From positions 1-64,000 of the forward strand of contig WSYB01000011.1 of the NCBI GenBank assembly GCA_009773645.1: a stretch of 64,000 nt of DNA, in the 5' to 3' direction. The position numbers and the translations under genes were made by a program. This stretch comes from Geobacteraceae bacterium (GTDB lineage Bacteria; Desulfobacterota; Desulfuromonadia; Geobacterales; Geobacteraceae). The notes beneath the pieces were generated by a model. That model ran no database searches. It worked only from the letters and a program-made list of their open reading frames with translations, and was not told the DNA's origin. Positions 46,604 through 51,679 of this stretch are shown piece after piece (within the stretch, counting starts at the first letter, position 1; each line of letters opens with the position of its first letter).

Positions 46604-48406
46604 ATGCCCGAACTGTACTTCAAGGGAAAAGAATTCGTCTACAATCATCACCTGACGGTGCCATACCGCCCACTGGAACCGGTGCCGGAAAGATCCATCG
46701 GCGAGGACTCCGGCAATTTGATCATCCATGGTGACAACCTGCATGCCCTCAAAGCCATAATGCCTCACTATGCCGGCAAGGTGGACTGCATCTTCATCGA
46801 CCCGCCTTACAACACTGGCAATGAGAACTGGTCCTACAACGACAACGTGAATTCCCCCATCATGCGGGAGTGGCTTTCCAGCAATCCGATCAACCGGGAG
46901 GACATGCTTCGTCACGACAAGTGGGCCTGTCTGATGTACCCGCGCCTGAAGCTGCTGCACGAGTTGCTCTCGGAACAAGGAAGTTTCTGGATGACCCTTG
47001 ACGACAATGAGATTCACCGTGCCCGGATGATAATGGATGACATCTTCGGAGAGGAAAACTTTGCCGCCAATATCGTATGGCAGAAAAAATACTCTACGTC
47101 GAACGACAACACTGGAATTGCTCCGATGCATGACCATGTGCTGGTGTATCAAAAATCGCCTGAATGGCAACGAAACCTACTTGAGCGTACGGAAGAAAAT
47201 GATCAGCAGTACCGTTACGAAGATGAAAAAGGTATTTTTAGGGCGAGTGACTATACATGCAATAAGACAGCTGACGAACGACCTAACCTCTACTACCCGA
47301 TAAAAAATCCAATTACTGGCGAGGAAGTCTGGCCGAACAAAACGAGAGCATGGGCTTACTCGAAGGAAGAACACCTTAAGCATGTAGAGCAAGACTTGCT
47401 TTTCTGGGGAAAGGACGGCAAAGCTAACGTTCCATCATTTAAGCGGTACAGGCATTTATTACGTAGCGGAGGCGGCACGGTACCGACGACTTGGTGGCCG
47501 CATGAAGTTGTAGGACATACTGACGAAGCGAAAAAAGGAATAAATGCCATCTTCGCCGACGCAGACACGAAAATCGATTTTGTCACTCCCAAGCCGACCC
47601 GATTGATTGAACGGATACTCCAGATAGCCGCTGACTCCGATGCGCTTATTCTCGACTCCTTCGCCGGTTCCGGCACCACTGCTCACGCGACACTCTCCCC
47701 CAATGCCAAAGATGGCGGCAACCGCAACTTCATCCTGGTGGAATGTGAGGATTACGCTGACACCCTGACCGCCGAACGTGTCCGCCGGGTGATCAACGGC
47801 TATGAGTACGAGGGGACGCAGAAGGAGGAACTTTTTCGCAAGAAGGTCAGCTTTTCGACTCTGAAAGATGCGCCTAAGTTGCTGCGGGAAATCGAGCACA
47901 TCGAACAGGTGAAGGGTAAGCGTTTCGACAAAATCAGCAAGTTCATTAAGGATGACGAACTGCTGGTGGTCGGTGAGAAGAAGATCACCGAGCGGACCGA
48001 AGGGCTGGCTGGTGGCTTCACTTATTGCGAACTTGGTCCGCCGCTGGATCTGGACAAACTGCTGACCGGCGAACATCTTCCAGACTACCGGAGTCTCGGC
48101 GCCTGGCTGTTTCATACCGCCACCGGCGAACCCCTGTCTCCAGTCAAGGTGCGCGAGGATGACTGGTATTTGGGCGAAAGCCCCGGCTACCACGTCTGGC
48201 TGATCTACCGGCCCGACCTGGACTGGCTGAAATCCCGAGATGCAGCCCTCACTCTGACCCTGGCTGAAAGGATCGCTGCTACCGCCAAGGACAAGCAGCA
48301 CTTGGTCTTTGCCCCGGCACGCTTCGTCGCCAGCAAACACCTGCTACCTCTCGGCGTCGAACATGCGCCGCTGCCGTTCGCCTTGTACCGGTTCGAGAAG
48401 GAATAA
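46604..48406 (+). CDS. mod: Type III-like DNA adenine methyltransferase (Mod)
   Basis: 600 aa. N6-adenine methyltransferase of the beta class: DPPYNTGNENWSYNDN near residue 67 comes before the SAM-binding FAGSGTTAHATL near residue 355. The C-terminal third (from about 430) is a target-recognition or partner-binding region. Works with Res (49073) to recognise and protect a site. Mod and Res are separated by a RAYT gene, an unusual interruption. Confidence 0.93.
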   Translation: MPELYFKGKEFVYNHHLTVPYRPLEPVPERSIGEDSGNLIIHGDNLHALKAIMPHYAGKVDCIFIDPPYNTGNENWSYNDNVNSPIMREWLSSNPINREDMLRHDKWACLMYPRLKLLHELLSEQGSFWMTLDDNEIHRARMIMDDIFGEENFAANIVWQKKYSTSNDNTGIAPMHDHVLVYQKSPEWQRNLLERTEENDQQYRYEDEKGIFRASDYTCNKTADERPNLYYPIKNPITGEEVWPNKTRAWAYSKEEHLKHVEQDLLFWGKDGKANVPSFKRYRHLLRSGGGTVPTTWWPHEVVGHTDEAKKGINAIFADADTKIDFVTPKPTRLIERILQIAADSDALILDSFAGSGTTAHATLSPNAKDGGNRNFILVECEDYADTLTAERVRRVINGYEYEGTQKEELFRKKVSFSTLKDAPKLLREIEHIEQVKGKRFDKISKFIKDDELLVVGEKKITERTEGLAGGFTYCELGPPLDLDKLLTGEHLPDYRSLGAWLFHTATGEPLSPVKVREDDWYLGESPGYHVWLIYRPDLDWLKSRDAALTLTLAERIAATAKDKQHLVFAPARFVASKHLLPLGVEHAPLPFALYRFEKE

Positions 48407-48421
48407 CGGCACACGTTTTTT

Positions 48422-48480
48422 GTAGGAGCGCCTTTAGGCGCGATTGCATTTGGTTCATCGCGGCCATAGGCCGCTCCTAC
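48422..48480. repeat. REP doublet (BIME) upstream of RAYT
   Basis: GTAGGAGCGCCTTTAGGCGC-GA and, inverted, TCGCGGCCATAGGCCGCTCC-TAC. Each is a GTAGGAGCG...CGA REP with a short hairpin. The form is the one known for RAYT-mobilised REPs of the Pseudomonas type. Confidence 0.92.
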
Positions 48481-48492
48481 AGGAGGTTCTGC

Positions 48493-49008
48493 GTGGATAA
48501 ACCACACGGACGGGATTTGCGAAAGGGAAGGGTTTCCATTCCCGGTCAAATTTATCTTGTGACCACCGTTACGCTCGGACGTAAACCGCTCTTTGCCGAT
48601 TTTCGTTTTGGACGCATTCTGGTCAACGCCATGCGGCACTATGCAGAAAAGGGCGATGTGGATAGTCTTGCTTTTGTGATCATGCCTGACCATCTGCATT
48701 GGCTGTTTTCGCTGACAGGACAAAGCTCACTGTCCAAGCTCGTGGGACAAGTTAAAGGTGCTGCGGCACATCAGATGAATCAGGCAGGAGCGCCTTCAGG
48801 CGCGATTCAATCGACAGACATCGCGGCTGAAGCCGCTCCTACGGGGCGGTTGGGCCGAGTATGGCAAGAAGGATTTCATGACCGTGCGCTACGTCGGGAA
48901 GAGGATTTAAGGTCCGTAGCGCGGTATATGATCATGAATCCGGTCCGGGCCGGAATCGTCAAGCGGATATGGGATTACCCGTGCTGGGATGCGGTGTGGG
49001 TAGAGTAA
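48493..49008 (+). CDS. REP-associated tyrosine transposase (RAYT)
   Basis: 171 aa from GTG 48493 with AGGAGG upstream. Y1_Tnp (IS200-like) fold: YLVTTVTLGRKPLF, the H-x-H of FVIMPDHLHWLF, and WQEGFHDRALRREEDLRSVA with Tyr in VARYMIMNPVRAGI. A stretch of about 21 residues (AGAPSGAIQSTDIAAEAAPT, about 96-117) is encoded by an internal REP doublet in frame. Flanked by REPs on both sides. Confidence 0.93.
   Translation: MDKPHGRDLRKGRVSIPGQIYLVTTVTLGRKPLFADFRFGRILVNAMRHYAEKGDVDSLAFVIMPDHLHWLFSLTGQSSLSKLVGQVKGAAAHQMNQAGAPSGAIQSTDIAAEAAPTGRLGRVWQEGFHDRALRREEDLRSVARYMIMNPVRAGIVKRIWDYPCWDAVWVE
48784..48842. repeat. REP doublet inside the RAYT coding sequence
   Basis: GCAGGAGCGCCTTCAGGCGC-GA and inverted TCGCGGCTGAAGCCGCTCCT-AC, about 59 bp. 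The element sits in frame and codes for residues absent from typical RAYTs. Confidence 0.9.
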
Positions 49009-49034
49009 GACCATAGACGCTTCATTCAAGATAA

Positions 49035-49057
49035 TCGCGGCCAAAGGCCGCTTCTAC
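49035..49057 (-). repeat. Single REP downstream of RAYT
   Basis: TCGCGGCCAAAGGCCGCTTC-TAC, one REP in inverted orientation, 16 nt before the res start. Confidence 0.85.
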
Positions 49058-49072
49058 AAGAATCAGGTGATT

Positions 49073-51679
49073 ATGGAACTCAAAGACTTTCAACAACGGG
49101 TTCTCGATACCCTTGACAGCTATCTGGACGAGCTCATGGCCAGCCACGCAAGCTTTCTCAAGTATCAGCAATTCATGCTGGAAAACCCGGACATGGAAGC
49201 GCCGGCTTTTGACTATACTGAGAAGGCATGGGGCAAGCTCCGGGATGCGGGCAAACTGCCATTGGTTCGGGCAAAATTTTCCTTCAGCCCCCGAACAGAC
49301 GGCATTGGTTGCTCTGTCCCGGCAGTCGCTCTCAAAGTGCCGACTGGTGGCGGCAAGACCTTGCTGGCAGCTAATGCAGTCTCTCGCATCATGTCTAAGT
49401 GGCTGCGCCGTAACAGCGGTTTTGTCCTTTGGATCGTTCCCAACGAGTCAATTTACGCCCAGACCAAAAAGGCTCTGAGCAGTCGGGATCATCCCTATCG
49501 CCAGCAATTGGACAAGGCTGCGGCTGGACGGGTTAAGATTCTGGAGAAGAACGATCCGCTCAACAAAAGGGATGTGGATAGCCACCTCTGTATCATGCTC
49601 CTAATGCTCCAGTCGGCCAATCGTGAAACACAGGAAACACTACGCATGTTCCGTGACCGGGGAAATGTCCATGGCTTTTTCCCTGTAGCTGATGATTATC
49701 TGGCCCATCATGTGGAATTGCTGCAAGTGCCGAACCTGGACGTGTACGGCGAACGGGACACCATGGGGGCCATCGTCAAGGATTCCCTCGGAAACGTGCT
49801 CCGCTCTATCAAACCGATTGTCGTGCTGGATGAGGGGCATAAAGGATATTCCAAGCTGGCGCTTACGACGCTGTACGGCTTCAACCCCAGTTTTGTACTA
49901 GAACTGTCGGCAACACCGAAAGATCGCCCCAAGGATATCCCTCCCATGTACAGCAACTGGCTGGTGGATGTGCGAGGCACTGAATTGGACCGGGAAGGGA
50001 TGATCAAGCTGCCGCTCAACGTGACCGTGCATGGCGGCGAGGAGTGGCGGGACTGTTTGCGGGAAAGTCTGGAACGGTTGAATAATCTGCAACGCGAGGC
50101 CGAACGGCTGCAAAGTGAAACAGGACGTTACATCCGCCCCATCGCCCTGATCCAGGTGGAGCGTACCGGCAAGGATCAACGGGATGCGGGGTACATTCAT
50201 GCAGCGGACGTTCGGGAGTCCCTGCTGACGTTGGGTGTGAGCGAAAAGGAAATCGCCGAAAAGACGGCGGAGAAGAATGAATTGAAGGACCCTGAGAATA
50301 TCGACCTGTTGAGCCGGACCTGCCAGGTGCGCTTCATCATCACCAAGCAGGCGTTACAAGAAGGATGGGACTGTCCCTTTGCCTATGTTCTGTGCGCCTT
50401 GGCGGCGACAACCAACAAGAGCGCCTTGACCCAACTGGTAGGGCGAATACTCAGGCAACCCGATACCATTAAGACCGGGAATGATGCTCTTGATGAGTGT
50501 TACGTGATCTGTCACCACGCCTCGACGCGGGAAGTCATTGACGCGGTTAAGGCCGGACTTGAGCAAGACGGCATGGCGGATCTGGCTGATCAGATTCGCG
50601 AATACAAGGGAGACGGCCCTAAGCGGCCCGAACCACGCACCATTCCCCGACGAGATGATTTCAGTACGGCAAAAATCTACCTGCCGCTGGTCAACCGGGT
50701 AGACAGCGGCACAGTGCGCCCGCTCGACTACGAGCAAGACATCCTGCAACGGCTGCCATGGGAGCAGCTGACACCTGACGGCGCCTTTGCCGAGCGGGTA
50801 AAGAAAATAACAACGACGGCAAGCGCCCGAACTATCAGGATCGGGCTCAAGGACGACCTGAAAGACAAGGATTTCATCACCAAGACGGAAGGCGAGGTCC
50901 GCCCGGAACTGGAAGCTTTTGACCCGGTCTATGTCGTCCGCTCCATCGTGGACATCGTGCCGAATCCCTGGCGGGCACGGCAGATTGTAGCAGAAGCCGT
51001 GTCGCTCCTCAAAGCAACCGGTCTTGACGATGAGGCTCTGGGGTTGCGCCAGTCCCATGTCATTGAAGAGCTGCGTAAGACCCTCCTGGGCATTCGTGAC
51101 AGGCTGGCAGAGGAGCTGTTCACATCCGATGTAGCGACAGGAAGCATACAGTTCCGCCTGCGAACCGACGGCCAGAACTGGCGGATGCCGGACACTATGC
51201 CGACAGACCGGGCCGCAAACAGTCAAGAACTGCGCCGTGATGACGGCCAGATTGTCAAACAGAGCCTATTCGCTCCGGCCTACCGCGACGATTTCAACGA
51301 GTACGAGCAGCAGGTGGCCTGTTACCTGGATAGTGAAGCGGCAGTCCGCTGGTGGCACCGAAATGTGGCCAAGCGCCAGTATGGTGTCCAGGGGTGGCGC
51401 AAGCCGAAAGTCTACCCGGACTTCATTTTTGCGCTGTCGGCGGCAGGTGGTATTGAACGGCTGATGATCGTCGAGACCAAGGGGGACCACCTGGCCGGCA
51501 GCGACGACACCGGGTACAAGAAGAAGCTTTTGGAGCTTTGCTCGGGGTCTTTCAGTTGGGAGAATGTCACGCGCGTCGGGGAACTGGAGTTGGTCTATAA
51601 CCCGCAGACATCCGTCAACTGCGCCTTGGTGTACCAGAAAGATTGGCAGTCGGAGCTTGGTGGACTGGTTACATCCTGA
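49073..51679 (+). CDS. res: Type III-like restriction helicase-nuclease (Res)
   Basis: 869 aa from ATG 49073. SF2 helicase with Walker A VPTGGGKTLLAANAV, DEGH box in VVLDEGHKG, SAT motif ELSATPKD and QLVGRILRQP. A C-terminal PD-(D/E)XK endonuclease has KVYPDFIF then VETKGDHLAG. It cuts unmodified DNA when paired with Mod. Length and order are normal. The only oddity is the RAYT/REP insertion between mod and res. Confidence 0.92.
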   Translation: MELKDFQQRVLDTLDSYLDELMASHASFLKYQQFMLENPDMEAPAFDYTEKAWGKLRDAGKLPLVRAKFSFSPRTDGIGCSVPAVALKVPTGGGKTLLAANAVSRIMSKWLRRNSGFVLWIVPNESIYAQTKKALSSRDHPYRQQLDKAAAGRVKILEKNDPLNKRDVDSHLCIMLLMLQSANRETQETLRMFRDRGNVHGFFPVADDYLAHHVELLQVPNLDVYGERDTMGAIVKDSLGNVLRSIKPIVVLDEGHKGYSKLALTTLYGFNPSFVLELSATPKDRPKDIPPMYSNWLVDVRGTELDREGMIKLPLNVTVHGGEEWRDCLRESLERLNNLQREAERLQSETGRYIRPIALIQVERTGKDQRDAGYIHAADVRESLLTLGVSEKEIAEKTAEKNELKDPENIDLLSRTCQVRFIITKQALQEGWDCPFAYVLCALAATTNKSALTQLVGRILRQPDTIKTGNDALDECYVICHHASTREVIDAVKAGLEQDGMADLADQIREYKGDGPKRPEPRTIPRRDDFSTAKIYLPLVNRVDSGTVRPLDYEQDILQRLPWEQLTPDGAFAERVKKITTTASARTIRIGLKDDLKDKDFITKTEGEVRPELEAFDPVYVVRSIVDIVPNPWRARQIVAEAVSLLKATGLDDEALGLRQSHVIEELRKTLLGIRDRLAEELFTSDVATGSIQFRLRTDGQNWRMPDTMPTDRAANSQELRRDDGQIVKQSLFAPAYRDDFNEYEQQVACYLDSEAAVRWWHRNVAKRQYGVQGWRKPKVYPDFIFALSAAGGIERLMIVETKGDHLAGSDDTGYKKKLLELCSGSFSWENVTRVGELELVYNPQTSVNCALVYQKDWQSELGGLVTS

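Follow-up and report, generated by a model that had tools for sequence, protein, structure and literature searches.

A REP doublet read in frame within a RAYT gene of a Geobacteraceae bacterium and a small clade of its relatives

Background

In-frame REPs inside tnpAREP genes are stated to be unique to subclass 2.4 in the text of Quentin et al. (2018, PMC6006769). As described there, this subclass has the motifs NH[IFV]H and YIxNNP, is abundant in Cyanobacteria and Bacteroidetes, and carries a variable insert between beta3 and alphaC. The same text places inserts of other subclasses between alphaC and beta4, near the REP-recognition region, and links the region just before the WQ motif to the reading of the GTAG foot. 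For subclass 2.5, which is mostly Xanthomonad and Pseudomonad, no internal REPs are reported in that text.

In-frame palindromes have also been described beyond the transposase genes. According to Di Nocera et al. (2013, PMC3733652), GTAG/CGTC REP dimers can lie in frame inside genes and encode 20-30 residues, and the paper also notes REPs that overlap tyrosine transposase genes at their ends. The in-frame cases given there are mainly in DNA repair and other host genes, and the main text names no RAYT with an internal REP.

Here we analyze a RAYT (REP-associated tyrosine transposase, HUH/Y1) gene in a 64 kb stretch of DNA from a Geobacteraceae bacterium; "the window" refers to this whole stretch. 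The gene contains a REP doublet within its own reading frame, and in this it is like subclass 2.4 as characterized in PMC6006769. It differs from that subclass in that the insert lies after alphaC and before the strand that carries WQ, not between beta3 and alphaC, that its motifs are DHLH and YMIMNP, and that its host belongs to the Desulfuromonadia. A related RAYT in genome G048 has NHFH, but combines it with YVVMNP. The window RAYT shares with subclass 2.5, as defined in PMC6006769, the DH[LF]H and WQ motifs and a length of about 150 aa without the insert, and its homologue set includes many Pseudomonas and Stenotrophomonas RAYTs. However, the YI[VI]ANP motif given for subclass 2.5 is replaced by YMIMNP in the window protein and by Y[LMV]VMNP in other members of its clade.

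Two other systems invite comparison. In the Rickettsia palindromic elements, as described in PMC3733652, small palindromes are read in frame and tolerated by the proteins, as appears to be the case here. The Rickettsia elements are a different repeat, whereas here the host gene encodes the repeat's own presumed transposase. Like REPINs, as presented by Bertels and Rainey (2011, PMC3116915), the repeats at this locus are inverted REP doublets linked to a RAYT, but REPINs form dispersed populations and the REPs found in the window's genome occur only at two RAYT loci.

The preliminary description of this locus called self-insertion without loss of frame unusual. In-frame REPs in RAYT genes had already been described for subclass 2.4 (PMC6006769). 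In the text of the open-licence PubMed Central articles searched, we found none that describes internal REPs for a RAYT of the window type or for Desulfuromonadia. An in-frame REP in a RAYT is thus known in kind; new, within the papers searched, are the lineage, the place and the pattern of REP turnover. This would be a second RAYT lineage that houses its own REP in frame, at a different loop. Relatives with and without the insert, together with the changed REP letters, open two questions to testing: do RAYTs place REPs in or close to their own genes, and how do REP sequence and RAYT specificity change jointly? The insert sits just before WQ, in a region that PMC6006769 links to reading of the GTAG foot, which makes an effect on specificity directly testable.

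A RAYT with REPs around and within its reading frame

The RAYT gene, its REPs and its neighbours are listed here by position in the window.

46604..48406, forward strand: DNA methylase gene, taken to be the mod gene of a type III restriction-modification system (Pfam N6_N4_Mtase); upstream neighbour
48422..48444, forward strand: flanking REP upstream of the gene; left arm of an inverted doublet of 59 nt (48422-48480)
48457..48480, reverse strand: upstream flanking REP, right arm, adjoining an RBS-like AGGAGG stretch (48481-48486)
48493..49008, forward strand: RAYT gene, GTG start, 171 aa, frame intact
48784-48806, forward strand: internal REP, left arm GCAGGAGCGCCTTCAGGCGCGAT, with the foot GCAG in place of GTAG
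48784..48843, forward strand: REP-encoded codons (residues 98-117, AGAPSGAIQSTDIAAEAAPT), part of the loop that follows helix 80-98 and precedes strand 129-132
48820-48842, reverse strand: internal REP, right arm GTAGGAGCGGCTTCAGCCGCGAT, with a GTAG foot and full stem
49034..49057, reverse strand: downstream flanking single REP GTAGAAGC, one mismatch
49067..51679, forward strand: type III restriction enzyme gene, res (Pfam ResIII); downstream neighbour

The protein scores 147.9 bits against the curated family model NF047646 of NCBIfam (cut-off 80) and also matches Pfam Y1_Tnp. It has the HUH motif as DHLH (residues 66-69), the pair W124-Q125, and Tyr145 within YMIMNP; Tyr145 is taken to be the catalytic residue, as in the family. 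D66, H67, H69, W124 and Q125 are invariant among the aligned RAYTs, and Y145 is nearly invariant. The best solved-structure match is the E. coli REP transposase 4er8_A (Foldseek E 2.7e-9), which superimposes on the window protein over 139 residues (Z 16.2, rmsd 2.2). The family model with the HUH and Y...NP motifs, the fold, and the REPs on both sides of the gene each place it among RAYT/TnpAREP proteins. Judged from its sequence, it is a RAYT with all of the usual motifs, and it is predicted to cut REP single strands. Contigs C4 and C46 of this genome carry three further, more distant relatives of the RAYT (L003, L004 and L005; 26-41% identity).

The internal inverted doublet spans 48784-48842 (59 nt) and lies wholly within the open frame 48493-49008, between the HUH and Y motifs. 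The preliminary description had reported such a doublet between conserved motifs of a REP-flanked RAYT, with the frame kept. We find its coordinates correct and the 171-aa frame intact, with DHLH, WQ and YMIMNP all in place, and the repeats are beyond chance expectation. A scan of the 64 kb window with the pattern GTAGGAGCGSCNNNAGSCGCGAT, allowing up to 3 mismatches, gave 3 matches, all at the RAYT locus; shuffled windows gave a mean of 0.02 matches and 0 of 100 shuffles reached 3, which rules out a chance or misread repeat.

The insert lies in a loop of variable length

In an AlphaFold2 model based on the window protein and 49 homologues (mean pLDDT 87.5), 127 of the 171 residues have a pLDDT of at least 90. 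The model is weak only at the ends and at residues 101-120, a low-confidence loop with block means of 56 and 58. The insert follows helix 80-98 and precedes strand 129-132, which, by comparison of the model with 4er8 and with the text of PMC6006769, we read as alphaC and beta4.

The linker between helix C and strand 4 has 47 residues in the window RAYT and 49 in its paralogue. In 80 homologues without REPs at this place it has 23-35 residues, most often 29 (80 of the 81 homologues found were kept, and one of the 80, L072, is frameshifted). By these sequences, the linker is a naturally variable spot. The preliminary description put the addition at about 21 residues; it is indeed an in-frame addition, but the doublet encodes 20 residues (98-117), and the net gain against the commonest linker of 29 is about 18.

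Six genes of one clade carry internal REPs

The window's genome (G000) encodes a paralogue (G000:C23) that shares 77% identity with the window RAYT and has a doublet at the corresponding position, in which one of the arms has decayed. In a search of the class Desulfuromonadia, 11 of 277 genomes had a RAYT match at E 1e-15. Internal REPs occur in five of these 11, in six genes: two in G000 and one each in G048, G220, G243 and G002. They are absent in G006, G080, G102, G147, G235 and G244. The REPs of G048, G220 and G243 are in frame and at the same place as in the window RAYT, and five of the six carrier genes are full length with their motifs. G220 also has a second, partial RAYT, without the insert region.

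No insert was found outside this group among homologues whose sequence was inspected, including 80 genome_contigs loci. A sample of the phylum had a RAYT match in 5 of 395 genomes; three of these were new, and inspection of their sequences showed no insert. For 50 of the 80 genome_contigs loci the whole genome was searched; no match spanned an insert-bearing length where both halves were listed, a check that rests on coordinates rather than sequences and in which several matches comprise one half only. Among 72,556 plasmid records, the two with a RAYT match are both below 60% identity, with spans of 456 and 429 nt that are too short for an insert. One stretch in the viral contigs matched a pattern, and no viral contig encodes a relative.

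In a tree of 88 RAYTs, calculated with the linker and insert columns removed, the six carriers form one clade (branch support 100/94), and the insert label needs one change. Branch order within the clade is weak (84-90 bootstrap), with few columns and an unsettled bootstrap. Among RAYTs that lack an insert, that of G006 is nearest in the tree; with 174 REPs by the GTAGGAGCG pattern in 6 Mb, G006 contrasts strongly with the window's genome.

The preliminary description treated the insert as the trait of one gene, which is not the case, given that the paralogue and RAYTs of four other genomes carry REPs too and belong to one clade. The paralogue, the four genomes and the single clade also rule out a private, recent insertion. 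Alignment of relatives, which the preliminary description proposed, confirms the insertion, as homologues outside the clade are without the segment. The counter-case it named, in which all homologues carry the segment in non-REP codons, is ruled out by this absence; the clade members carry REPs, with some arms decayed.

We consider a single in-frame gain of a REP in a permissive loop of an ancestral RAYT, tolerated and followed by turnover of the REP letters, to be the probable history of these genes. A REP doublet, like those found beside the gene, would have entered the loop codons once, in the ancestor of the small clade, and because the unit is 59 nt plus one base the frame would have been kept. 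The loop between helix C and strand 4 tolerates changes in length, and the rest of the enzyme has stayed under purifying selection. Afterwards, the internal REP letters would have been replaced or re-shaped, to some extent following the REPs that surround the same gene; recombination between neighbouring REPs, renewed insertion, or co-evolution with the specificity of the enzyme may account for this. The single gain is deduced from the carriers forming one clade, not from orthology of the insert letters. We infer that the RAYT itself made the insertion, that events took this order, and that the loop is harmless to activity; the "self-insertion" by the window enzyme suggested in the preliminary description is plausible. 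Inheritance by descent and horizontal transfer would both fit the sequences.

Selection and sequence differences within the insert

The five full-length carriers form ten pairs. Omega outside the insert is 0.08-0.12 in the five pairs with finite dS, where dS is near saturation (it is infinite in the other five). Inside the insert it is 0.48-1.52, a value being available for eight of the ten pairs (dS is infinite in two). As far as the sequences tell, this contrast agrees with the earlier suggestion that the loop could be tolerated. Selection on the encoded peptide is unsupported, as the peptides vary and G243 reads the REP in a different frame from the other four full-length carriers.

Potentially, the gene could be a dying pseudogene that remains open through the REP by happenstance, as the G002 RAYT has lost its 5' half up to the REP. 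We regard this as very unlikely, given that the other five carriers retain full length and motifs, that no stop codons were found inside, and that omega, where computable, is about 0.1 outside the insert.

The internal doublets are 59, 59, 59, 53 and 53 nt long, all of them 2 modulo 3, with the 59-nt unit common to the window gene, the paralogue and G048 and the 53-nt unit common to G220 and G243. Flanking doublets are 59 nt in the window, 48 and 57 nt at the paralogue, and 52 nt in three cases, of which G220 has one and G243 two. The outer doublets of these two genomes are therefore one base shorter than the internal unit, which suggests fitting to the frame. The window gene, the paralogue and G048 have similar residues to the right of the 59-nt unit. 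The inserts of G220 and G243 have other boundaries than those of the remaining carriers and contain 3 and 5 REP arms by eye (2 and 3 by scan). Given these boundaries and extra arms, a second insertion in the two genomes is possible.

The REP class of an insert agrees partly with that of its own flanks. The G048 insert is of the GCGGGC class, the same as around its gene, and the G220 and G243 inserts have GCGGC left arms and GCCCC-type right arms, as are found around their own genes; the left arms of the G048 and G220 inserts are identical to a flanking REP. In a pairing test of five loci (G002 was left out, having no flanking REP within 700 nt), the pairing of each insert with its own flanks ranked 2nd of 120 permutations, and 3rd without two hand-added arms. 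The agreement is incomplete: internal arms of the window gene and the paralogue are nearer on average to the G220 and G243 REPs than to their own flanks (0.935 vs 0.891 and 0.848 vs 0.786).

Identity between members inside the insert is 35-70%, and the make-up of the doublet varies. Between the window gene and the paralogue, the right arms are identical at 22 of 23 positions, while identity over the remainder of the gene is 75.7% (p 0.014, one arm out of two); the left arms, at 18 of 23, are not unusual. Decayed internal arms include those with GCAG and GAAG feet and the arms of G243.

These patterns bear on whether REPs were inserted repeatedly and independently, landing near the RAYT where they are made, with only in-frame hits in the permissive loop surviving, which would fill one position time after time. 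Such a history would account for the local kind of the internal REPs in G048, G220 and G243, for the different boundaries and arm number in G220 and G243, for the occurrence of the REPs found in the window's genome at RAYT loci, and for a loop that varies from 23 to 35 residues in the 80 homologues without REPs at this place. It does not sit easily with the grouping of all six carriers in one clade, with units shared at 59 nt (window, paralogue and G048) and 53 nt (G220 and G243), or with the lack of an insert both in the six other RAYT genomes of the class, including G006 and its 174 REPs, and at the 80 genome_contigs loci. We view repeated insertion as a rather doubtful candidate, and favour the single ancestral gain with later turnover.

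REP numbers and a possible role for the internal REP

In G000 (4.74 Mb), the wide pattern GTAGGAGCN{8,11}GCGA has 7 matches, all at the two RAYT loci, a count that is weak on its own because the reversed control also has 5. The 23-base pattern, with up to 3 mismatches, has 7 matches as well (reversed control 5). Five of these have 0-1 mismatch and fall without exception at the two RAYT loci; the other two, with 3 mismatches, lie elsewhere. Three of these five REPs are inside RAYT coding frames, which make up 0.02% of the genome. With the wide and the 23-base patterns, no dispersed REP population of the window kind was found in G000.

Counts of REPs of the GTAGGAGCG pattern are 7, 1, 17, 3 and 7 in carrier genomes vs 174, 16, 19, 28, 29 and 40 in non-carriers (exact p 0.009), a contrast that sets one clade against the rest, is not independent, and relies on a pattern that does not match the second REP class found in G220 and G243. 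The six non-carrier genomes were counted with the GTAGGAGCG pattern only. We take the difference as a hint that carrier genomes have fewer REPs.

It is conceivable that the internal REP is a working control element, by which the RAYT recognises the REP in its own gene or messenger, limits expression or marks the gene, and keeps REP and enzyme matched. Several internal REPs are still palindromic while the peptide changes freely, the right arm is nearly identical between the two copies in the window's genome (22 of 23), carriers have fewer REPs of the GTAGGAGCG pattern, and, as RNA, the internal doublet is predicted to form a strong fold (z -3.4). However, several internal arms have decayed, the REP counts are not independent and the pattern undercounts G220 and G243, and strong folding is expected of any REP. 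A control function thus seems unlikely to us. We would give similarly little credence to the related idea that the internal REP is a self-recognition element, through which the enzyme binds its own gene or messenger and limits the spread of REPs. If it were so, the internal REP would have to follow changes in enzyme specificity, and the gene would be a readable record of current and past substrate. The single tolerated gain remains our preferred reading of the insert.

Gene neighbourhoods of the clade

The methylase and restriction genes on either side of the window RAYT are read as mod and res of one type III system. In G220 (L186) and G243 (L187), a type III res gene comes before the clade RAYT and a second gene after it, the opposite of the gene order in the window. 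The second gene is a DNA methylase by Pfam in G243; in G220 it has a similar start, is cut by the contig end, and has no Pfam match. The occurrence of the RAYT within type III operons reflects either chance or a liking for such operons.

The upstream REP doublet of the window gene folds strongly as RNA (48415-48490, z -5.4) and pairs into the AGGAGG stretch. With start codons as assigned, the remaining four full-length carriers likewise have a REP whose end lies 17-25 bases upstream of the start. Translational control of the RAYT by the upstream doublet is possible.

In G002, the RAYT (L189, G002:C90:48569-48772) is missing its 5' half and starts at the internal REP. This truncation fits a deletion that ran from an upstream REP to the internal one, and the internal REP may thus be a liability to its gene.

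The G048 RAYT (L188 4236-8911) is located between the genes for 2-oxoglutarate dehydrogenase E1 and dihydrolipoyl acyltransferase, which looks like a site inside a core metabolic operon. The second RAYT of the window's genome (L191 4098-5511) adjoins a gene for a HigB-like toxin and another that encodes Xre-type and IrrE-like domains.
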